A stretch of 64,000 nucleotides of DNA from assembly GCA_947631445.1 (NCBI GenBank), contig CANRLN010000003.1, positions 1-64,000 of the forward strand, in the 5' to 3' direction. Numbering within the stretch: the stretch's first letter is position 1; every line of letters starts with the position of its first letter. Source of the DNA: an uncultured Clostridia bacterium. GTDB lineage: Bacteria; Bacillota; Clostridia; Oscillospirales; Ruminococcaceae. The position numbers were made by a program, and so were the translations under genes. Below the pieces are notes generated by a model. It did not search any database, was not told the origin of the DNA, and saw only the letters and a list, made by a program, of their open reading frames with translations. Positions 14,389-61,003 of this stretch are shown one piece after another.

Positions 14389-17300
14389 ATGGCTAGAAAA
14401 ATGAAAACCATGGACGGTAACAACGCAGCCGCTTGGGCTTCCTACCCGTTTACAGAAGTTGCTGCTATTTACCCAATCACTCCATCATCTGTTATGGCTG
14501 AAGTAACAGATGAATGGGCAGTTAAAGGCAAAAATAACATTTTCGGCAAACCTGTAAAGGTTGTTGAAATGCAGTCAGAAGCCGGTGCGGCTGGTGCTGT
14601 TCACGGCTCGCTTGCTGCTGGTGCTTTGACCACAACCTATACCGCATCACAAGGCTTGCTCCTTATGATTCCGAATATGTATAAAATCGCCGGCGAACTT
14701 CTTCCCTGCGTTATCCATGTTTCCGCAAGATGCGTTGCGTCCCACGCTCTTAACATCTTTGGCGACCACTCGGATATTTATGCCTGCCGTCAGACAGGTT
14801 TTGCAATGCTCTGCTCCACTAATCCACAGGAGGTTATGGATTTGGGTACGGTTGCTCACCTCTCTACAATCAAGGCAAGAGTTCCTTTTATTCACTTCTT
14901 TGACGGTTTCAGAACCTCCCACGAAATTCAAAAAATTGAAACATGGGAAATGGAAGATGTTGAAGAAATGGTCGATAAGGACGCTATCGAAGCTTTCAGA
15001 AACCGTTCAATCAACCCTGAACACCCTGTTCTCCACGGCACTGCTCAGAACCCTGATATTTTCTTCCAGACTCGTGAAGCATCTAACAAATATTATGACG
15101 CCGTTCCTGAAATTGTTGAAGAATATATGAACAAGGTAAATGCTAAAATCGGCACAGACTATAAACTCTTTAACTATTATGGTCACCCACAGGCTGACCA
15201 TGTTATTGTTGCAATGGGTTCAATCTGCGATACAATTGAAGAAACAATTGATTATCTTAACAAAACAGAGGGAACAAAACTCGGTCTTGTTAAAGTTCGT
15301 CTTTATCGTCCTTTCCGTGCTGATAAGCTTGTTGAAGCTCTTCCATCCACAGTTGAACAGATTACAGTTCTTGACAGAACAAAAGAACCCGGTTCAATCG
15401 GCGAACCTCTTTATCTTGATGTTTGTGCTGCAATCAGAGGCACTCAATTCCATGATGCTGTTGTTGCAAGTGGTAGATATGGTCTTGGTTCTAAAGACGA
15501 AACACCTGCCGAAATCAAGGCTGTTTACTGGAATTCTTACAAGAAATCCACCTACAAACCACGCTTTACAATCGGTATCAATGACGACGTGACACATCTT
15601 TCACTTGATTCATCTGATAAAATTGACACCGCCCCCGAGGGAACAACCTCCTGCAAATTCTGGGGTCTTGGTGCTGACGGTACTGTTGGTGCAAATAAGA
15701 ACTCTATCAAGATTATTGGTGACCACACAGATATGTACGCTCAAGCTTATTTTGCTTATGACTCCAAAAAATCTGGCGGTGTAACTGTTTCTCACCTTCG
15801 TTTTGGTAAGACACCTATTAAATCTTCCTATCTTATTTCACAGGCTGATTTTGTTGCCTGTCATAACCAGTCTTATATCTCAAAATATCATATTGTTGAC
15901 GACATTAAGCCCGGCGGTACTTTCCTGCTCAACTGCCAGTGGACAGAGGAAGAACTTGAACAACACCTTCCCGGTCAGGTTAAGAGATATATTGCACAAA
16001 ACAACATTAATTTCTATATCATCAACGGTGTTAAAATTGGTAAGGAAATCGGACTTGGCAACAGAATTAACACGGTTCTTCAATCCGCTTTCTTCTCGCT
16101 TGCAAAGATTATCCCTCTTGAGGACGCAGTTAAATTTATGAAAGACGCTGCAACCGCTTCCTATTCAAGAAAGGGCGAAGCAATCGTTAAAATGAACCAT
16201 GATGCTATTGATGCAGGTTACAAGCAGGTTGTTAAGGTTAATGTTCCCGAAAAGTGGAAGAACGCTAAGGATACCGCTATGGGTCTTGGCAAGGCTAAAT
16301 CACCTGACAAAAAACTTGAAAAGTTTGTAAACGAAATTCAAATTCCTTGCAACGAACAAAGAGGTGAAAGGCTCCCCGTTTCAACCTTTGTTGATATGGC
16401 TGACGGTACTTTCCCACAGGGTTCTGCTGCATTTGAAAAGAGAGGAATTGCAGTTGACGTTCCTGCATGGAACAGCGATAACTGTATTCAGTGTAATTTC
16501 TGTTCCTATGTCTGCCCACACGCTGTAATTCGTCCGGTTATCATGACACAGGAAGAACTCGACAATGCTCCAGAACTTGCAAAGAAAAAGGCTATTGCTT
16601 GCACTGGTATGTCTGGTTACTATTTTGTAATGACCATGTCGGCTCTTGACTGCACAGGTTGTGGCTCTTGCGTTAATGTATGCCCCGGCAAAAAAGGCAG
16701 CAAGGCTCTTAGCATGATGCCTATTGACACACAGATGGCTGAACAAGAAGTGTTCAACTATGGTCTTACACTTGCTGAAAAACCTGAAGTTCTTGAAAAA
16801 TTCAAGGAAACAACCGTTAAGGGTTCACAGTTCAAACAACCTCTCCTTGAATTCTCTGGAGCTTGTGCAGGTTGTGGCGAAACTCCTTATGCTAAACTTG
16901 TAACTCAACTCTTTGGCGACAGAATGTATATCGCAAATGCAACCGGTTGTTCGTCAATTTGGGGTGGTTCTGCTCCGTCAACTCCTTATACTACCAACAA
17001 AGACGGTAAAGGTCCTGCATGGGCTAACTCCCTCTTTGAGGATAACGCAGAATACGGCTATGGTATGTATATTGCACAGAATACAATCCGTCAAAGAACA
17101 ATCGAAAAACTCGGTGAACTTGAAAAGACAACCAAAAGCAACGACCTTAAAGCCGCTATTGCAAAATTTATTGCAACAAAAGACAACGGCAAGGAAAACA
17201 CCCCTGCAACCAACGAACTTATCACAGCACTTAAAAAATCCAAAACAGAACTTTCCAAGGATATTCTTAAGAACGCAGATTATCTCCGTAAAAAATCCCT

Positions 17301-18818: not shown

Positions 18819-21359
18819 TTAGGATTTTTCAGAAAGGTAGATGGACATTCTCGACTGAACAGCCTTTGCAGTCTGTTGAGCGTCCTTGTCGCCAGAGAAC
18901 AAAGCACTAAGTTCTTCGTTGATAATATCCGTAATATCCATATCATAGTTCATAATGCTATTCTGCTTTTCAAGCCATGCAATAAACTCGTCCATTTCTG
19001 CCTGTGTGGGCTGACCGATTGTAATTTCCTTATCCTCGCCGGAAAGATAGAAGGTTCTATCCTCGGTTATTTCCTTGCCTTTTTCATCCTTATAATTTGC
19101 AGGTTTCATAGCTTCCTGTGCTTTCTTTTCAAGGGCAGATTTCTTAACTGGCAAATTAAAATCCATATTGCTTTGTTTTTCATCTGAAAGAACCGACTTC
19201 AAAAACTCCCAGCACTGGTCAGCATACTTTGTTTTAGAAGAAATTGCATATACACCGCTTGCAGAGATTATAGCAGACGACGAACCATTTATCTTAGGCA
19301 AACCGATAAAGTTCACACCATCTTTGAAATATCCCTTGTTGTATTCTTGGAAATTGGTCATATCATAAATATTAGCATTATAAATATAAGCTTTTCCGTT
19401 TCTACAAGCGGACTCCTGATTTCTCCATTTATCCTCGTCCCAGGTTTGGTTATCATAGTAGTTTTGGTAATCCTCATCTGTCCAATCGGTTGTGTCCTCT
19501 CCTGTTTCAATGGAAATGCCGTCGTTTGGCAGGTCTTTGATAAAGTCAAGCAGTTTTATAAAATCTTCGCTATCGAAAGAACAGGTTGAGTTTTTAAAAT
19601 CAATAAATGAATTGAGATTTGCATAAACAAGATAGTTAAGAATTGTTTCACGGTCAAGGTTACCTGTGTTCATAAAGGTTTTTCCGCTGTCCATGTTTTT
19701 ATAGAAATCAACAAATTCATCAAATGTCCAACCGTCTTTATAGTCTTTGAAAACTTCCTTGTCGCCTACCCATGTCATAAGTCCCCAGCTTGTGCAAATA
19801 CCATAAAGTTTGCCGTCAAATTCATAAGCTGAAAAGATGTTCTCAAGAAAATCCTCTTTCTTAATGTCGCTATCCTTTTCAAACATTGTGTTTAAATCAA
19901 TAAAAGCACCCTTGGATTGCAAATCATTAATCTTTGAACCCAACAGTTCAAGTGAAACAATGTCAGGAGCATTGCCGGTTGTAAGGTCATTTTTGTATTG
20001 ATTATATGCGGCACTTGCATCCTCGTCATCTTCAGAAACATACTGGCTATAATCTTTAACTATAATCTTATATTTATCCTGCGATTTGTTAAATTCAGCA
20101 ACCTGCTTAGAAACTTCTGTATTGGTATAGTAAACTCCGAGGGTTATTGTTTCAATATTCTTCAAATCCTCGTCCGACACTCTCGAAAGTTTAACAAGGT
20201 TTGCTGAATTGCCGTCATCGGAATTAAGAACTGCAATAAAATCACCGTTTTCAAGGGCAATCATTCCCGTTTCTGTGCTAATGGCATATTCCGAAACAGA
20301 AGAATTTCTCCAATTTACAATCTCGGTTTTCTTGCCTGCATCATAGTCAACAGAATATACGCCGTTCTGGTTATAGCTGTAAAGTTTACCATCTGTTCCA
20401 ACAAAAATTCGGTTGTCGGCATAATCCGAATTGTTAGCTTTCATATCCTTTGGGTCGGAGAGTTTGCCTGTTCCAATATCCAGTTTTGCAACCTTGCTTT
20501 GATAGTCATCATTTGACTGATAGGAAATCATAACGGTTTTGTCGTCAAGTGCAACCATATTTGTAATCCAACCTATATTGCCGTCAATTGTTTTTTCCTC
20601 ACCTGCACCATCATTTTCATCAAAAGTATAATAGCTGTGTGTTTCTGCTCCGCTTTCGTTATCATAAGAATCTTTAAATATAATATATTTTCCATTATTC
20701 TTTACAACACTTTCAATACTGCTGGAATTGCCACCGTCCTGTTCAATCTTTCGGCTTTCAATTTCTTTTCCTGAAACAAATTTTCCGTCCTTGTCAAATT
20801 TAGCAAAATAAGAAGTGTTTTTAAAATCTTTATAATATTCGTCAACCTGTTTTTGGTCTTCCCAATCAACATCTTCAGCCTTAAGTCCACTTGCCGAAAC
20901 GCCGTAGGAAATAACCTGATACAATCCGCCGTCGTCGGTTTCTTCCATAGCCATTATGTATGCAGCGTCGTTCTTTTGTGGGTTTGCATCGTCAGAAATG
21001 CCGTCATAGGAAAGTTTTGTAAGCTCCTTGCCGTCAAAGCTGACCTTTGAAGTGTTTTCAGTTCCGTCTTCGTCATAATAACTAAGCCACAAAGCGTCTT
21101 TGCCTGAAGCACAAATACGTCTTACACTATCTATTTTTTTGTCACTAAAAGTCAAGTTCTCTTGAGTGTAAACATTAGTATATTCCGCCTTAACCTGCTG
21201 GGTTGCTCCGCCGTTGCTATCCTGCTCACCTGTGGTTGTGTTTGCAGTGCTATTATTGTTTGTCTTTTTGCCTTCGCAACCGCTAAACATAGCAAGGCTC
21301 ATCACAAGAGCTGTTGTTGCACAAACTAATTTTTTTACAATTGAATTTTGAGTTTTCAT
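18819..21359 (-). CDS. Large lipoprotein with C-terminal ABC solute-binding domain (paralogue A)
   Basis: An 846-residue lipoprotein. I chose the ATG at 21359, with AGGAGG upstream. The signal ends in LAMFSGC (lipid Cys about 28), then a Thr/Asn linker. Residues about 60-400 are strand-rich with recurring patterns such as TDGKLYSYNQNGVYSVDYD, which I read as a beta-propeller-like region (inference). Residues about 405-846 are a family 1 solute-binding domain: ITLGVYYTNTEVSKQVAEFN, NAPDIVSLE, WTFDEFVDFYKNM, QCWEFLKSVLSDE. It is the last gene of the transport locus and has its own promoter (21441-21469). Its paralogue is immediately upstream. The ligand is probably a carbohydrate because of the MalF/MalG-like permeases, but it is not visible in the sequence. 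Confidence 0.75.
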   Translation of the reverse strand: MKTQNSIVKKLVCATTALVMSLAMFSGCEGKKTNNNSTANTTTGEQDSNGGATQQVKAEYTNVYTQENLTFSDKKIDSVRRICASGKDALWLSYYDEDGTENTSKVSFDGKELTKLSYDGISDDANPQKNDAAYIMAMEETDDGGLYQVISYGVSASGLKAEDVDWEDQKQVDEYYKDFKNTSYFAKFDKDGKFVSGKEIESRKIEQDGGNSSSIESVVKNNGKYIIFKDSYDNESGAETHSYYTFDENDGAGEEKTIDGNIGWITNMVALDDKTVMISYQSNDDYQSKVAKLDIGTGKLSDPKDMKANNSDYADNRIFVGTDGKLYSYNQNGVYSVDYDAGKKTEIVNWRNSSVSEYAISTETGMIALENGDFIAVLNSDDGNSANLVKLSRVSDEDLKNIETITLGVYYTNTEVSKQVAEFNKSQDKYKIIVKDYSQYVSEDDEDASAAYNQYKNDLTTGNAPDIVSLELLGSKINDLQSKGAFIDLNTMFEKDSDIKKEDFLENIFSAYEFDGKLYGICTSWGLMTWVGDKEVFKDYKDGWTFDEFVDFYKNMDSGKTFMNTGNLDRETILNYLVYANLNSFIDFKNSTCSFDSEDFIKLLDFIKDLPNDGISIETGEDTTDWTDEDYQNYYDNQTWDEDKWRNQESACRNGKAYIYNANIYDMTNFQEYNKGYFKDGVNFIGLPKINGSSSAIISASGVYAISSKTKYADQCWEFLKSVLSDEKQSNMDFNLPVKKSALEKKAQEAMKPANYKDEKGKEITEDRTFYLSGEDKEITIGQPTQAEMDEFIAWLEKQNSIMNYDMDITDIINEELSALFSGDKDAQQTAKAVQSRMSIYLSEKS

Positions 21360-27910: not shown

Positions 27911-28837
27911 TTATTCTTCAACATCACTGCCGAATTTGTTTTCAAGTGCAAACACAATGCCTATTATAACAATCATAGCAAGAGCAAGCACCACCGCCGC
28001 AGCCGAAAGTTTCTGATAATCAAGCGATTCAAAAGTGTTGTTCATAAAATGCTGGAGCATATAAAGCTCGGTTGAGGGATAACCACCAGTTATAAGAAAC
28101 ACCTCTCTGAAAATCTTGAAAGAATTTATAAGCGAAAACAAAAGAACAAATACAATTGTAGGCGAAAGATATCTAAGGCGGATTTTAAAGAATTTATACA
28201 TTCTGCTTGCCCCCTCAAGGTCTGCCACCTCGATTAAATCCATTGGCATATTGTTTAGTGCTGACATAAACAAAATCATATTGTATCCAAGAGTTTTCCA
28301 CAAAAACATTATTGTCACAACCCCGATTGCCCATTTGGAATTAAGCCAGTCAATGCTCGCTATTCCATATTTTTCAAGAGTATCGTTTAAAGCACCATGA
28401 TAACTGAATATTACCTGCCACACCAAAACTACCGATGCCACAGGAACCATAAGAGGACAAAGAAAACAGGTTCTCAGCTGACTTTTAAGCGGGATTTTTT
28501 TATCCAAAAGCAGTGCCAGCAATAGCGAAAACACTATAGCAAGAGGAATAGCAATTGCCGTAAAAACTCCTGTATTTTTGGCTGCAATTTTAAAAGCGTT
28601 GTTTTCAAAAAGCTTTTTAAAATTTTCCAGTCCGACAAAATTGTTTGAAATTACATTGTCTATAACACTATATTTTCCCACCACTACAAAAGGTGCAACA
28701 AAAAATATAAGAATACCAATTATGCTCGGCACAAGACACAGCCAAGAGAACAAAAGCTCCTTTTTTTCAGCTTTTGTTCTTTGGTGCTTTTTTTCTTGCG
28801 TTTTTTCTTTTGTCTTTAAAGCTTTAGCCTGCTCCAT
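27911..28837 (-). CDS. Sugar ABC transporter permease, MalF/UgpA-like
   Basis: A 308-residue permease, first gene of the transport locus. The N-terminus is very Lys/Glu-rich (about 1-28), then six helices, with the EAA loop LIEVADLEGASRMYKFFKI (about 205-223). The start ATG at 28837 has AAAGGAG upstream. Its mRNA leader (28838-29048) is structured (see separate entries). It pairs with the MalG-like permease 26 bp downstream. The substrate cannot be named from sequence. Confidence 0.85.
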   Translation of the reverse strand: MEQAKALKTKEKTQEKKHQRTKAEKKELLFSWLCLVPSIIGILIFFVAPFVVVGKYSVIDNVISNNFVGLENFKKLFENNAFKIAAKNTGVFTAIAIPLAIVFSLLLALLLDKKIPLKSQLRTCFLCPLMVPVASVVLVWQVIFSYHGALNDTLEKYGIASIDWLNSKWAIGVVTIMFLWKTLGYNMILFMSALNNMPMDLIEVADLEGASRMYKFFKIRLRYLSPTIVFVLLFSLINSFKIFREVFLITGGYPSTELYMLQHFMNNTFESLDYQKLSAAAVVLALAMIVIIGIVFALENKFGSDVEE

Positions 28838-28862
28838 TGTTAAATGCTCCTTTGTTTATATT

Positions 28863-28968
28863 AAAAAAGCAGGGGAGGTTGTGTCCTTTCTTTCATTACA
28901 AAACCAAATGTTTTGTATTTTTTCTATGTATATTTATATATATTTTTTGGGAACTCCCCTGCTTTTTT
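28863..28968 (-). promoter_or_regulatory. Structured leader with terminator-like stem before the transport locus
   Basis: A perfect 15-bp inverted repeat: AAAAAAGCAGGGGAG at 28863-28877 and CTCCCCTGCTTTTTT at 28954-28968, 76 nt apart, with an inner hairpin (ACAAAAC/GTTTTGT) in the loop. In the minus-strand RNA the right arm is GC-rich and ends in six U, about 11 nt before the RBS of the first permease. This is terminator- or attenuator-like. It does not match a riboswitch class I recognise. Confidence 0.5.
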
Positions 28969-28985
28969 CAGACGATAATTTAGTT

Positions 28986-29025
28986 TTGTACGATTTCTCC
29001 GCCAAAATGGTGGAGAAATTGCACA
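28986..29025. repeat. Dispersed hairpin repeat in the transport-locus leader
   Basis: Long inverted repeat with arms TTGTACGATTTCTCCGCC and GGTGGAGAAATTGCACAA around loop AAAAT. It is transcribed as part of the 5' leader of the transport locus. Confidence 0.65.
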
Positions 29026-29054
29026 ATCCATAAAAAACTTCTCTTTACAATTTT

Positions 29055-29083
29055 ATTATATCACAAGGATTTTTAATTTGCAA
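29055..29083 (-). promoter_or_regulatory. Sigma-A promoter of the transport locus
   Basis: TTGCAA (29078-29083), 17-bp spacer, TATAAT (29055-29060). The inferred start is near 29048, giving a leader of about 210 nt. Confidence 0.65.
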
Positions 29084-29092
29084 GTTTATTTT

Positions 29093-29131
29093 TCTTAAGA
29101 TTTTGCCGAATTTCTTAAGACTTTCTTAAGA
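29093..29131. promoter_or_regulatory. Three phased TCTTAAGA palindromes upstream of the promoter
   Basis: Identical 8-bp palindromes at 29093-29100, 29113-29120 and 29124-29131, start-to-start distances 20 and 11 bp (about two and one helical turns). The first is 9 bp from the -35 box of the transport-locus promoter. This is the position and spacing expected for an activator such as an OmpR/PhoB-type response regulator (inference). Confidence 0.5.
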
Positions 29132-29219
29132 TGTAAAACAATATAAATTTTTGCAAATATTTTTTATATATTTTATACAAATATAATTTTTTGGTGTTTA
29201 TAGTTTTTGCATTTGTAAC

Positions 29220-29247
29220 GTGTTTCCCACCGTATATGGGAGAACAC
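29220..29247. repeat. Dispersed hairpin repeat, imperfect
   Basis: GTGTTTCCCA and TGGGAGAACAC arms around a short centre; it shares the outer GTGTTTCC with copies A and B but has mismatches. Confidence 0.45.
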
Positions 29248-29497
29248 ACAAGATTTTTTCTAAATATATTATATCATATTATTTTGTTTACCACAATTCA
29301 TTTAGCTTACATTTTGCGATTTTTACATGACATTTTTGTAATATGCAAACTATCTCTGATTTTTTTGCCCAACACTTATTATATACTGTAAATCTTACAT
29401 TTAAATGACAAAAGATTTGCATATTTATTGCTAAGGGCAATATAAAATATGACTGTATACCGATTTTGCAAAAAACCATACCAATTTTACAAAAAAG

Positions 29498-29526
29498 CTG
29501 ACAAATCAAAAATTATGTGCTATAAT
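29498..29526 (+). promoter_or_regulatory. Promoter of the candidate small RNA
   Basis: CTGACA (29498-29503), 17-bp spacer, TATAAT (29521-29526) with TGC before the -10 (extended). No plus-strand protein gene follows. Confidence 0.65.
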
Positions 29527-29532
29527 AAAATC

Positions 29533-29690
29533 ATAGAAAAGAAGAAAACTTAATATTGCTGCTTTTTAAGTTTTCTTTCCTTTTGAATATGAACATGAAA
29601 TTTTCAATTTTCCTCCTTTTTGATAATTTTATAAACAACTTCATATTCTACTTCCTTTTAGACCAACCGCTCGTCAGCGGTTGGTTTTTT
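29533..29690 (+). ncRNA. Candidate small RNA with anti-Shine-Dalgarno motif
   Basis: About 158 nt between a good promoter (29498-29526) and a strong terminator (29663-29690). The 5' part folds into a perfect ten-base stem AGAAAACTTA/TAAGTTTTCT. The middle is pyrimidine-rich and carries UCCUCCUUUU (29611-29620), complementary to the AGGAGG ribosome-binding sites common in this window. Other C/U runs flank it. Such C/U-rich loops are typical of Firmicutes riboregulators (for example the streptococcal csRNAs and RsaE/RoxS), but I see no direct homology. The one open frame here reads on through the terminator and looks like chance. Confidence 0.5.
29663..29690 (+). terminator. Terminator of the candidate small RNA
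   Basis: Perfect nine-base stem CCAACCGCT/AGCGGTTGG, loop CGTC, followed by TTTTTT. Confidence 0.85.
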
Positions 29691-29841
29691 CGTGCTTTTT
29701 TGTTGCTTTATAACCATAAACCAATATACAATAAAAATTACTTTTGCCAATGCCTATTATAGCACAAAAAAATAAAAAAATTTTATCAAAAAAAAAAAAA
29801 AAAAAAAACGTTAATTTTTCGTGAATAAATTGTTAATTAGC

Positions 29842-29877
29842 AAAATCCCTTGCCATAATAAAACAGCAAGGGATTTT
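29842..29877 (-). terminator. Terminator of the SGNH/exporter operon
   Basis: Stem AAAATCCCTTGC (29842-29853) with GCAAGGGATTTT (29866-29877), loop 12 nt, 11 bp past the stop at 29888. The T-run forms part of the stem. Confidence 0.65.
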
Positions 29878-29887
29878 TCTGTTATAA

Positions 29888-31129
29888 TTATCCCATAACT
29901 GCCGCCGACTTAACACAAGCCGCAGCGGTTGGGTTGGAAAATTTAAGGGTTATGGTTTTAGCCTTTGTAATTTCCACATCATCAAAGCTTACAACCTTTT
30001 TTTCGCCAAGGTCGCCATCGTGATTGAGGGTTAGTATATAGCAGGACTTTCCGTCCGCAAACACCTCAATATCCGTTGAAAAGTGGTTATCCATCGACAT
30101 ATCAAAGGCAATGCAATTTACCGCAAAACCACAATTGATTTTATAGCTTAAATTGTCACTTTCTTTTTTGGTAGCAGTAGAACAGTTTTTAAAACCGCCA
30201 AGGTTTGCATCTGCGGTTCTTCTTTCGGCAAATGCCGACACCTTTTCACGAATTTTTTCACTTACAAGCTGGGCAATATATTTTTGACCGTCAGGGGTAA
30301 CATTAGAATTTTCGTCATAAAAATTTTCCCCCTCTTTTTTCTTCATATTGAGATAGCCATCAACCGAATAGCTGTAAAATATGCTTGCTGAAGCTGTTTG
30401 TGCCTGTGTTATAATCTCATTTTGTGCTGAATTTTCCACAAGATTAATAATTTCACTATTTGGATATTTTGCGTTTAAAACATTTGCAATTCCCAAAAGA
30501 GGTTCTCCGGTGCGGTCGGTGGGATTATCATTGCTTCGTCTAAAGCAGGTAATAATAAGGTCATAATTTTTGTCCTTTTTAAGCGTTCCGACATTAATAA
30601 GTCCACGGTAAGCGTCAATGCCCTCCTCGCCCAAAATATCCATGCTTATATTGCAGTCATATTCGCTTTCCAAAGTTTTTTTAAACTTTGTAGTCCATTT
30701 TTGATTAACATCGTCCGCTCCATAGCCAAGGGCAAATTCGTCCCCTAAAACAAGAACATTATAGGTATATCTTTTTTCAAACTTTTCATGATAAAGCTTT
30801 GAGCTTCCCAGTTTTACAAAAAAGTTGTTGCTTTTAAAGAAATTTTCCAAATCCTTTTTTTGAAGTTCGGCAATCTCCTGCTGTCTTTGTTTATCTTCGG
30901 TTTCAGCCTCTTTTTCTGCTTGTTCTTCTTCCTCTTTTTGTTTTCGCTCCTGCTCTGCCTGCTCGTCCTGCTGTTTTTGTTTCTTTTGCTTATAAGCCAT
31001 TTGTATACTTAAATTTTTCTGATTTTTTTCATCTTGGTTAATATAATATTTGGCATAAGCATAACAGCTGAAAGCCACAGCCACTGCCGATACTATTGCC
31101 AATATTTTATTGTGTACACCTGTTTTCAA
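29888..31129 (-). CDS. Membrane-anchored SGNH-like protein lacking the catalytic Ser (paralogue 1)
   Basis: A 413-residue protein with an N-terminal helix (about 8-27), a highly charged Lys/Gln/Glu coiled-coil stretch (about 35-95), an SGNH/GDSL-like domain (about 120-300) and a C-terminal strand-rich domain. Block I reads VLVLGDEFALG, so the usual GDS nucleophile serine is Glu. Near the C-terminal block (DENSNVTPDGQKYIA) the usual DxxH His is also absent. It is therefore probably not a hydrolase. It starts at a TTG (31127-31129) with AGGGGAAG upstream, 13 bp after the paralogue gene. It lies in one operon with a TagG/TagH-like exporter, suggesting a role in cell-surface polymer assembly (inference). 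Confidence 0.6.
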   Translation of the reverse strand: MKTGVHNKILAIVSAVAVAFSCYAYAKYYINQDEKNQKNLSIQMAYKQKKQKQQDEQAEQERKQKEEEEQAEKEAETEDKQRQQEIAELQKKDLENFFKSNNFFVKLGSSKLYHEKFEKRYTYNVLVLGDEFALGYGADDVNQKWTTKFKKTLESEYDCNISMDILGEEGIDAYRGLINVGTLKKDKNYDLIITCFRRSNDNPTDRTGEPLLGIANVLNAKYPNSEIINLVENSAQNEIITQAQTASASIFYSYSVDGYLNMKKKEGENFYDENSNVTPDGQKYIAQLVSEKIREKVSAFAERRTADANLGGFKNCSTATKKESDNLSYKINCGFAVNCIAFDMSMDNHFSTDIEVFADGKSCYILTLNHDGDLGEKKVVSFDDVEITKAKTITLKFSNPTAAACVKSAAVMG

Positions 31130-34288: not shown

Positions 34289-35719
34289 TTGACAAATAGT
34301 TACGAAAGCCCTTTTTGCACAAGATATGCAAGTAAGGAAATGCAGTTTATTTTTTCTGCCGACAAAAAATTTACCACATGGAGAAGATTATGGGTTGCCC
34401 TCGCAAGAGCCGAACACAAGCTTGGTTTGCCTGTAACACAACAGCAGATTGACGAACTTGAGGCAAATATAGATAATATCGACTATGAAAAAGCAGCAGA
34501 ATATGAAAAGAAATTCCGCCACGATGTAATGGCTCACGTTCACACCTATGGCGATGCCTGCCCCAATGCCGAAAAGATTATCCACCTTGGAGCAACCTCA
34601 TGTTATGTAGGCGACAACACAGACGTTATTATTATGCGTGACGCTCTTAAACTTGTTAAATCCAAACTGCTTGGTGTTATCTCAAACCTTGCAAAATTTG
34701 CAGACAAATATAAAGCTGTTCCTTGCCTTGCTTACACACACCTTCAGCCTGCTCAGCTTACAACAGTGGGCAAACGTGCTACACTCTGGTGCAACGAACT
34801 GCTTATGGACTTGCAGGAACTTGATTTTAGAATTGACAATCTTAAGCTTTTGGGTTCAAAGGGTACAACCGGAACTCAAGCCTCCTTTATGGAACTTTTT
34901 GAGGGCGACAGCAACAAGGTTAAGGAACTTGAAAGACTTATTGCCGAAGAAATGGGATTTGACGGGGTTGTTCCTGTTTCAGGTCAAACCTATTCAAGAA
35001 AAGTAGATAGCGGAATTGTTTCCACCCTTGCCGCAATTGCCCAGTCTGCCTCCAAATTTAGCAATGATATAAGAATACTCCAATCTTTCAAAGAGATTGA
35101 AGAACCTTTTGAAAAAAATCAGATTGGTTCTTCCGCAATGGCTTACAAGCGTAATCCAATGAGATGCGAAAGAATTACCTCCCTTTCAAGATATGTAATG
35201 GTGGACGTTCTCAACACCTACTTCACCTCTGCTACACAATGGTTTGAAAGAACCCTTGACGACTCGGCAAACAAGAGAATTTCTGTTGCTGAAGGTTTCC
35301 TTGGGGTTGATGCTATTCTTAATATCCTGCTCAATGTAACTGACGGTCTTGTTGTTCACGAAAAAATCATTGAAAGACGAGTTATGGCTGAACTTCCATT
35401 TATGGCAACCGAAAATATTATGATGGACGCTGTTAAAAAGGGTGGCGACCGTCAGGAACTTCATGAAAAAATCCGCCAATATTCAATGAAAGCTGGAGCA
35501 AGAGTTAAAGACGAGGGACTTGACAACAATCTCTGCGAACTTATTCTTGCCGACCCTATGTTTATGATTACAAAGGAAGAAATGGACGCTATTATGAAAC
35601 CGTCCAACTTTATTGGCAGAAGTGTTGAACAGACAGAAGAATTTATTGCAAACAATGTAAATCCAGTGCTTTCCGCCAATAATTTTATTGAGTGTGAAAA
35701 GGTTGAACTTAATGTCTAA
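34289..35719 (+). CDS. purB: Adenylosuccinate lyase
   Basis: A 476-residue member of the fumarase/aspartase superfamily. It splits SAICAR and adenylosuccinate in purine synthesis. Visible are HDVMAHVHTYGD (about 74), GATSCYVGDNTD (about 95), TYSRKVDSG and the signature loop GSSAMAYKRNPMRCE (about 283). The start is TTG at 34289, with AAAGGAG eight bases upstream; the following TNSYESPFCTRYAS is the normal family N-terminus. The next gene overlaps its stop. Confidence 0.96.
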   Translation: MTNSYESPFCTRYASKEMQFIFSADKKFTTWRRLWVALARAEHKLGLPVTQQQIDELEANIDNIDYEKAAEYEKKFRHDVMAHVHTYGDACPNAEKIIHLGATSCYVGDNTDVIIMRDALKLVKSKLLGVISNLAKFADKYKAVPCLAYTHLQPAQLTTVGKRATLWCNELLMDLQELDFRIDNLKLLGSKGTTGTQASFMELFEGDSNKVKELERLIAEEMGFDGVVPVSGQTYSRKVDSGIVSTLAAIAQSASKFSNDIRILQSFKEIEEPFEKNQIGSSAMAYKRNPMRCERITSLSRYVMVDVLNTYFTSATQWFERTLDDSANKRISVAEGFLGVDAILNILLNVTDGLVVHEKIIERRVMAELPFMATENIMMDAVKKGGDRQELHEKIRQYSMKAGARVKDEGLDNNLCELILADPMFMITKEEMDAIMKPSNFIGRSVEQTEEFIANNVNPVLSANNFIECEKVELNV

Positions 35720-59900: not shown

Positions 59901-61003
59901 GATGGTAATTTGTTTCTTTCGTCATTGCCCTCGGTTATTTTGGTAAGGCTTGTGCAACCATTGAAAACGCCACTACCAATATACAATTGATAGCCTTGGT
60001 CACTACCACGTTGTTGGAAATTTACGCTTGAAAGGGAAGTACAACCCGAAAAAGCACTATTACCAAGTTGAGGCTTTTTGCTGGAACGCATCTTCTGCTC
60101 AATAATTTCTTTAATGCTATAACCATACTCTGCGGCTTTAAGGTCATTGAGGTTGTCCTCAGCAATAGAATTGTTAATAGTATTAGGAATGTTCATTTCC
60201 ATAATGGAAGAACAGCTTGAAAAAGCACTGTTACCAATACGCAAAAGTCCCTTTGTGCCATTGCCACCAAAGTTAAGCTTAACCTGCTTTATAGTTTTAC
60301 AGCCAGAAAAAGCCGAGTCATCAATAACCTCAACATTTGTAAGGTCAAGAATAGCATTAGGGTTTACCTGTCCTGTACCTGTAAGAATAGAACAACCTGA
60401 AAAAGCACTGCTTTCAATTGTTCTTACCCTTTCATCAAATTCAATCCACTGAAGGTGACTGGAAGTAGCACTGCCCGAAAAAGCGGATTTACCAATTGCG
60501 TCAAAACCTTTTATGGTAACATTGGCAATATTTGAAAAACTGTCTATAAGACCGCTACCATTTCCAAGAACATATTCAATTTCTTTTCCTGCAAATGTAT
60601 CATGCTCTCCAACACCACGATAATCGTCCACAATATCCATATCAACATCTGGATATACATTGCCAAGCAAGCTATCTCTAAGAGCTTGTTTTACCTCTGT
60701 AACATCAAAGGTAAGGCTTGCATTGTTTGGACCATATTTAGTTGGGTCAGCAAGAACGTGTACATCGTTTACAACACAGCGAATTTTGTCAGTATCTTTA
60801 TCATATTTAACATCATACATAAAGTTTAACGAAATATTCTTTGTCAAATTAAGTTTAGTTACATCAAAGTCTGTGTTTTCTTCAGCAAAAGCTTGAACTT
60901 TAGCATTTGAAACAGTATCTTTAACAACCTCTGCCACACTTGTGGGAGCATTGCCAAAAACAATTGCAGCAGCCAGCACAGACGCTACTATTTTCTTGTT
61001 CAT
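56918..61003 (-). CDS. BspA-type leucine-rich repeat surface protein with type I dockerin
   Basis: A 1361-residue secreted protein. Signal peptide (about 1-24, ending TSVAE), an N-terminal domain (about 30-135), then about 25-30 LRR_5 repeats of the form GxxAFxGCxxLxxIxIP (about 145-1155), a Big_2/Ig-like domain (about 1165-1258), a Ser/Asp-rich linker with repeated SSSRFEDSS, and a dockerin (about 1300-1361) with two calcium-loop halves DVDRNGKVDTADAL and DTDKNGSVDTTDAL, each followed by LKKVVGL. The dockerin should dock it onto a cohesin scaffold outside the cell; the LRR part suggests protein or surface binding. Own promoter (61155-61183) and terminator. LRR units were counted by eye. Confidence 0.88.
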   Translation of the reverse strand: MNKKIVASVLAAAIVFGNAPTSVAEVVKDTVSNAKVQAFAEENTDFDVTKLNLTKNISLNFMYDVKYDKDTDKIRCVVNDVHVLADPTKYGPNNASLTFDVTEVKQALRDSLLGNVYPDVDMDIVDDYRGVGEHDTFAGKEIEYVLGNGSGLIDSFSNIANVTIKGFDAIGKSAFSGSATSSHLQWIEFDERVRTIESSAFSGCSILTGTGQVNPNAILDLTNVEVIDDSAFSGCKTIKQVKLNFGGNGTKGLLRIGNSAFSSCSSIMEMNIPNTINNSIAEDNLNDLKAAEYGYSIKEIIEQKMRSSKKPQLGNSAFSGCTSLSSVNFQQRGSDQGYQLYIGSGVFNGCTSLTKITEGNDERNKLPSYTATVQSGVFTGCNSLASFAIDSNLGCVPENTFSNCKQLNTVTFINYNGQMEVIGSSAFTGCEALKDITLPDSITGIGSNSFSGCTSLNKINLPNSLYLLDGGAFSGCTNLAGDYTIPDSCVLIGEYAFQNCKSITGINFNLETTQMSGTGEEYKGIDGKIYADDGIYKGAFKGCVKLKSFTFPDAIITIQEELFDGCTDLKNVTYPKTTDMAIKFKKNTFRNCASLRSIQPSDKPVKDGVLQIGSNVNTIENSVFEGCQSAEYVQFLLKDGKNESECAEIGQAAFKNCSLLEGSMVGDTSANGILNIPSKITVINSEVFAGCESLEKVHVDGNITALNDSAFKDCKKMEECTFTSSVPTIGSGVFQGCESLLHMPSFMSGKDNISIYENPNVDEIKSSSFSGCKALADIVIPANIVKLGSGAFSRCESAKSVKVLGNSKLQSINSGVFNGCTALETFTFEGDSVLTAINSNAFSSCENFRQFVCKSADAYKSESNQDRKNTFSYLPDTLLTIETGAFNKTAIKGVVSGNSLTDLKISAFSGCPELTWADFTRSKNLGGIGDEAFNGCQKLETARFDENIKTIGKKAFYDCRALSSFNSNAGSHIFNIPKNITLVDDQTFYNNLQMETINIPASVITLANSAFNINYVIPAEEEGKYHLLKAINIDKDNQYYSSVDGILFNKAQNTLINYPMAKEGKEYTVPESVTLIGEYAFASNKNIEKASMPNKLEGMGRYCFNKCDNLKEVWFNNLSTTEIGDYAITNTRTDKEDVIIYGISGSSAETYAKKTSKVSFIDINTGANTLAIKQGTKASFARNQKDVKLDIIGYNVKGEEVKDFEYSWVSGDSSKVTVDKDGNLTLRAETKDTPVVITAKTPTGVTATIEITVTSEKSSVADSSSRFEDSSSVNSSTTDSSSRFEDSSYNDSSSNSEGKFEVGDVDRNGKVDTADALLVLKKVVGLETLDAEQTALADTDKNGSVDTTDALNILKKVVGLI

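Follow-up and report, generated by a model that had tools for sequence, protein, structure and literature searches.

A 1-kb gap in the genome of an uncultured, Ruminococcus-like gut bacterium of the Clostridia raises the question of whether a small-RNA gene lies there and, if so, what its product might do. In the 64-kb window, i.e. the whole stretch of DNA analysed here, the first-pass annotation had singled out a 158-nt unit with an extended -10 promoter, a 5' hairpin, a UCCUCC loop and a terminator. These elements are borne out by the sequence, the predicted fold and shuffled controls. Promoter, terminator, fold and absent coding signal together make a free-standing small-RNA gene at 29533-29690, with a predicted transcript, well supported. 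As for its role, the RNA probably lowers the translation of other genes, judging from the sequences that it would display. New relative to the earlier annotation are a motif present in three copies, a tandem 21-bp repeat at the -35 box, an Hfq gene in the genome and non-coding codon usage on the minus strand.

A predicted small-RNA gene in a 1-kb gap

The unit sits between a minus-strand sugar-type ABC permease operon and the 3' end of another minus-strand gene (Table 1). We take the latter to be SGNH-like from its sequence; a Pfam search with it returned no match. It had been noted that there is no plus-strand gene for the unit to serve, and indeed the nearest one begins at 34289. The same gap contains two further features. 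On the minus strand, just before the permease start (28837), the arms GCAGGGGAG and CTCCCCTGC enclose a loop of ~76 nt and have T runs on both sides (28869-28962); judged by eye, they are possibly a leader terminator or attenuator. The second feature, located past the unit on the side of the SGNH-like gene, is a run of ~20 A on the plus strand (29788-29808), possibly a weak point of sequencing or assembly.

The promoter consists of a -35 box, CTGACA (29498-29503), a 17-bp spacer and TGC-TATAAT, with the -10 box at 29521-29526, and it matches the consensus at 11 of 12 positions. We surveyed 1.16 Mb, about half of the genome, for TGnTATAAT combined with at least five of the six positions of TTGACA. 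The survey yielded 172 such sites, compared with one in a first-order Markov control, and this class of promoters is therefore real. Only 0.012 sites are expected in a simulated 1-kb intergenic region of local composition. The two copies of the repeat that abuts the -35 box are identical at 18 of 21 positions. When the 99 nt upstream were shuffled 3000 times, an equally good tandem repeat arose three times, and no further copy with at most one mismatch was seen in the 1.16 Mb. The location of this repeat suggests that the promoter is regulated; possible roles are those of an activator operator or of a phased A-tract UP element.

At the other end of the unit, the terminator did not appear in the output of a simple consensus scan, apparently since its stem extends into the T tract. 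None of 200 dinucleotide shuffles equalled the fold stability of the whole RNA, and the two hairpins taken without the terminator also proved exceptionally stable (z = -5.2; 0 of 500 shuffles equal).

Table 1. Features of the locus and of the corresponding spot in related genomes
Feature	Position	Strand	Details and basis
First gene of sugar-type ABC permease operon	27911-28837	-	
Tandem direct repeat, 2 x 21 bp	29457..29498	+	ATACCGATTTTGCAAAAAACC / ATACCAATTTTACAAAAAAGC, abutting the -35 box
Extended -10 sigma-70 promoter	29498..29526	+	CTGACA-17-TATAAT, TGC before -10; sequence; class specificity 172 real vs 1 Markov
Predicted 158-nt non-coding RNA	29533..29690	+	Ends inferred from promoter and terminator; -42.8 kcal/mol, z -8.25
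Rejected 37-codon open reading frame	29531..29644	-	Codon usage; no Pfam match
Hairpin 1, AT-rich	29537..29584	+	17 pairs in minimum free energy fold; z -3.3
CU motif, copy 1	29577..29584	+	UUCCUUUU; hairpin 1/hairpin 2 junction; only CC mostly unpaired
Hairpin 2, AT-rich	29585..29648	+	Apical loop 29608-29619 (UUUUCCUCCUUU); z -3.7
CU motif, copy 2 (anti-Shine-Dalgarno loop)	29610..29620	+	UUCCUCCUUUU, contains CCUCCUUU
CU motif, copy 3	29652..29659	+	UUCCUUUU; single-stranded linker before terminator; unpaired probability ~0.96-0.99
Intrinsic terminator	29660..29690	+	12-bp stem, CGUC loop, U tract; -18.3 kcal/mol, z -6.1
SGNH-like gene, 3' end facing unit	29888-31129	-	
tRNA genes divergently upstream of permease operon (Leu; Gly-Arg-His)	L247:4340-4424, L251:4359-4444, L248:5015-5374, L249:4040-4322		

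Open frames exist on both strands of the unit. The minus-strand one (29644-29531) has an SD-like sequence ahead of it, and a weak promoter match, TTGGCA-16-TATATT, is found on the same strand. It is conceivable that this is the meaningful strand, encoding a 37-codon protein with AAAGGAAG as its ribosome site, or a leader peptide. However, promoter-like matches of that strength occur near chance level, and a T tract follows the GC-rich hairpin on the plus strand only. The codon score of the frame (-0.30 per codon) is exceeded by 99.8% of gene segments and, among intergenic open stretches, by 94.5%, and the frame has no Pfam match, making a minus-strand product very unlikely. Inside the RNA itself, an ATG-initiated frame might specify a short hydrophobic peptide (MNMKFSIFLLF...) of the sort that type I toxin genes encode. 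Such a product is extremely improbable: the ATG is not preceded by an SD sequence, no stop codon occurs ahead of the terminator, the codon score (-0.16 per codon) is below that of 97.6% of gene segments, and Pfam gave no match. Both peptides were dropped on codon usage.

Three copies of a CU-rich motif

The centre of the RNA had been described as pyrimidine-rich and as containing an anti-SD sequence. This description stands with a refinement, as the motif UUCC(UCC)UUUU is present in three copies rather than one, at RNA positions 45-52, 78-88 and 120-127. Copies 2 and 3 are predicted to be unpaired, and copy 1 is open mostly at its CC only. At the tip of hairpin 2, the 12-nt loop UUUUCCUCCUUU has an ensemble unpaired probability of ~1.0; of the shuffles, 0.8% have CCUCC in such an apical loop. 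None of 5000 shuffles carried three copies of the motif, a figure that is descriptive given that the motif was defined after looking at the sequence. In the sampled part of the genome, three copies were found only in four overlapping intergenic windows, which from their number are probably the locus itself.

We also collected strong promoters that lead to a terminator with no intervening gene, and found 35 of them in the 1.16 Mb. The survey recovers real RNAs, since seven tRNA-like units, an FMN riboswitch and a skipping-rope RNA are among the 35. The unit described here is the only one of them with the CU motif, which it has in three copies.

Predicted pairing with start regions and proposed mode of action

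Among 932 predicted start regions, 128 have AGGAGG and 242 have GGAGG. In the target prediction, proposed earlier as a check, the loop can pair with many SD sites, but none of the 932 stands out as a target, and the best start regions are located outside the window. Within it, the ranking includes a repeat-rich, surface-protein-like gene at 61003 (rank 38), a lipoprotein gene at 21359 (40), the SGNH-like gene at 31129 (41) and nifJ at 14389 (45). Thus, nifJ and the lipoprotein gene, which had been named as possible targets, are not singled out by their ranks, and the lipoprotein start has GGAGGA instead of the AGGAGG attributed to it.

The loop reaches -15 kcal/mol or lower with 56 start regions; for 40 control loops, in which the core was kept and the flanks were shuffled, the mean is 33.9 and the maximum 57. 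The U-rich flanks therefore raise pairing with start regions above that of most controls. The generic 16S tail attains this threshold with 40 regions. The assembly lacks the host 16S rRNA, and so the match of the loop to the host anti-SD sequence is assumed. From these comparisons, the RNA seems well suited to pairing with SD sequences in general, with nothing pointing to a particular target.

The genome encodes Hfq (112.5 bits), in what we take from the sequence to be the neighbourhood of mutL/miaA-like genes. The presence of this chaperone, together with the U-rich loop, linker and tail of the RNA, is consistent with a small RNA that acts by protein binding, titrating Hfq or another RNA chaperone through its U-rich loops, or that serves as a sponge for other small RNAs. 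We consider this unlikely, because the CCUCC core and its flanks outdo most flank-shuffled controls in their fit to SD sequences, a property that would be superfluous for a U-rich protein ligand.

The best explanation in our opinion, and one to which we give an even chance, is that of a lineage-specific small RNA repressing translation by covering SD sequences, probably aided by Hfq. Transcription would start at ~29533 from the extended -10 promoter and end near 29690, at the intrinsic terminator; a factor that recognises the tandem 21-bp repeat might control it. The RNA would then display UUCC(UCC)UUUU at three places, the best of which would be the apical loop of hairpin 2, a copy of the usual 3' tail of 16S rRNA (CCUCCUUU). 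The motif may pair with A-rich SD sequences (AAAAGGAGGAAA), probably with the help of Hfq. Such pairing would block 30S binding and thereby lower the translation of a set of mRNAs whose ribosome-binding sites are strong and accessible. It is tempting to go one step further and to regard the molecule as a broad mimic of the 16S tail, a regulated RNA with anti-SD sequences in three places that would dampen many strong-SD mRNAs as a general brake rather than one target; we rate this version as quite improbable. In sum, the translation-repressing riboregulator proposed by the first-pass annotation is plausible and partly supported. It gains from the Hfq gene and from the three anti-SD copies, which lie at a junction or where the RNA is predicted to be single-stranded; its named targets are not singled out, and no relative was found in up to 397 genomes of the family.

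Search for relatives and synteny

Conservation in relatives had been put forward as another check, and no relative came to light in up to 397 family genomes. BLAST of the unit against 198 genomes of the family found no homologue; the matches covered mostly the promoter only, and the rest were short chance ones. With a covariance model built on one sequence, the search of 397 family genomes recovered the window itself at E 8.8e-43 and no homologue. Beyond the window, its top-scoring matches (L144-L152) consist of AT-rich hairpins or of alignments with gaps, and we judged them to be due to chance. The pattern TATAAT-N67-97-TTCCTCCTTTT matched in 37 of the 397 genomes, and a reversed-pattern control was at least as frequent. 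Viral contigs searched with the unit gave no match. The host genus is represented by a single species in the comparison set.

We then considered the neighbouring genes as anchors. The SGNH-like gene was discarded for this purpose, having only relatives of 22-24% identity. The permease/HlyD operon is syntenic in close genera. In two species of the close genus g29 (L247 and L251), a promoter, a tRNA-Leu(TAA) gene and a terminator occupy the syntenic spot, divergent from the permease, in place of the small RNA. Other near genera have tRNA-Gly/Arg/His genes or nothing at this spot. Small RNA genes can apparently be accommodated at this locus. The synteny and the similar promoter in L247 and L251 might indicate that the unit is a remnant of such a tRNA unit. 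Nevertheless, neither the sequence nor the fold of its body resembles a tRNA, ARAGORN detected no tRNA in the window, and the family has many promoters of this type. Such an origin is hardly credible.

A more serious alternative is that the unit is transcribed without having any selected trans-acting function. It would then be a young or decaying lineage-specific transcript, whose CU patches are a by-product of T-rich sequence. The lack of homologues in up to 397 family genomes and the generic nature of the anti-SD sequence, with no stand-out target, both fit this view. Strong hairpins, a well-formed promoter and terminator, and the threefold presence of the motif, at a junction and at sites predicted to be open, argue against it; none of 5000 shuffles had three copies. 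We regard such a transcript as possible yet doubtful. The 158-nt RNA is most likely a lineage-specific small RNA, which may be young or may evolve too fast for detection.

Likeness to known small RNAs

Rfam 15 has no match above curated cut-offs in the 64-kb window, and a permissive scan of 28800-30000 gave sub-threshold matches only. A close functional parallel is LhrC of Listeria monocytogenes, which has three UCCC sites, in a loop, a single-stranded stretch and the terminator loop, and pairs with the SD region of lapB (PMC4132741). LhrC1-5 and our RNA have in common redundant CU-rich SD-pairing motifs and a 3' terminator. Here, the three UUCC(UCC)UUUU copies are found in the loop and linkers, two in unpaired stretches and one at a junction. 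In contrast with LhrC, the motif is not CUCCC, the terminator loop (CGUC) does not contain it, and no second copy of the unit was found in the genome. The LhrC clan (CL00114) gave nothing beyond a match to rli22 at chance level, with 19.4 bits against a cut-off of 80. RNAIII, RsaE and SprD of S. aureus and FsrA of B. subtilis are also UCCC-type small RNAs, whose C-rich loop motif is assumed to block translation initiation at the SD sequence (PMC4132741). The likeness lies in the C-rich loop motif and in the low-GC bacteria concerned; the loop here has CCUCC instead of UCCC, and there is no Rfam match at cut-off.

In streptococci, the csRNAs are encoded in intergenic regions, each with a promoter and a terminator, and measure 51-202 nt. 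Their unpaired regions are complementary to SD sequences, and mostly also to AUG, and 40 different types have been predicted across species (PMC3091779). Our unit is likewise intergenic, with its own promoter and terminator, a length within that range and an unpaired anti-SD sequence. It differs from csRNAs in that its anti-SD sequence is in a hairpin loop and its promoter has a canonical -35 box, while csRNAs have a CiaR-type direct repeat in place of the -35. There is no CiaR box (TTTAAG-N5-TTTAAG) here, the upstream repeat, ATACCRATTTTRCAAAAAA, being different in sequence and spacing.

By analogy, the RNA most likely works like the CU-rich anti-SD small RNAs of low-GC Gram-positive bacteria (LhrC, RsaE, csRNAs), although membership of their families cannot be demonstrated. 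With these it shares a predicted free-standing transcription unit devoid of coding capacity and a predicted single-stranded sequence complementary to ribosome-binding sites. It is a sound small-RNA candidate of a known functional kind, for which we infer transcription, Hfq binding and repression by pairing. A limited literature search found no small RNA described in Ruminococcus-like gut Clostridia. If made and active, the RNA would be a redundant anti-SD small RNA in an Hfq-bearing host and would offer a concrete, testable example of rapid riboregulator evolution in uncultured bacteria of the gut, with a reach limited to one species and no target singled out.

The genome survey also brought up other units. 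The skipping-rope RNA (RF02924, 62.7 bits) is located at L230:14924-15049 (-) after a strong extended -10 promoter; our unit has no match to this family even at E = 10. A second orphan promoter-terminator unit, of 156 nt, lies at L194:1143-1298 (+). It has the CU-rich stretches CUCUCCUUUUUUUC and UUUUUCUUUC and a GC-rich terminator, is convergent with an 801-aa open reading frame, and has only short weak matches in 198 family genomes, with no clear relatives. Finally, two similar leader-like units of ~100 nt (GAGCGUACUGCUAA...UUAGCGGUUUACCUCCAAAG), at L186:9112 (-) and L212:1186 (-), have their terminators upstream of genes and possibly represent an unlisted cis-regulatory element.
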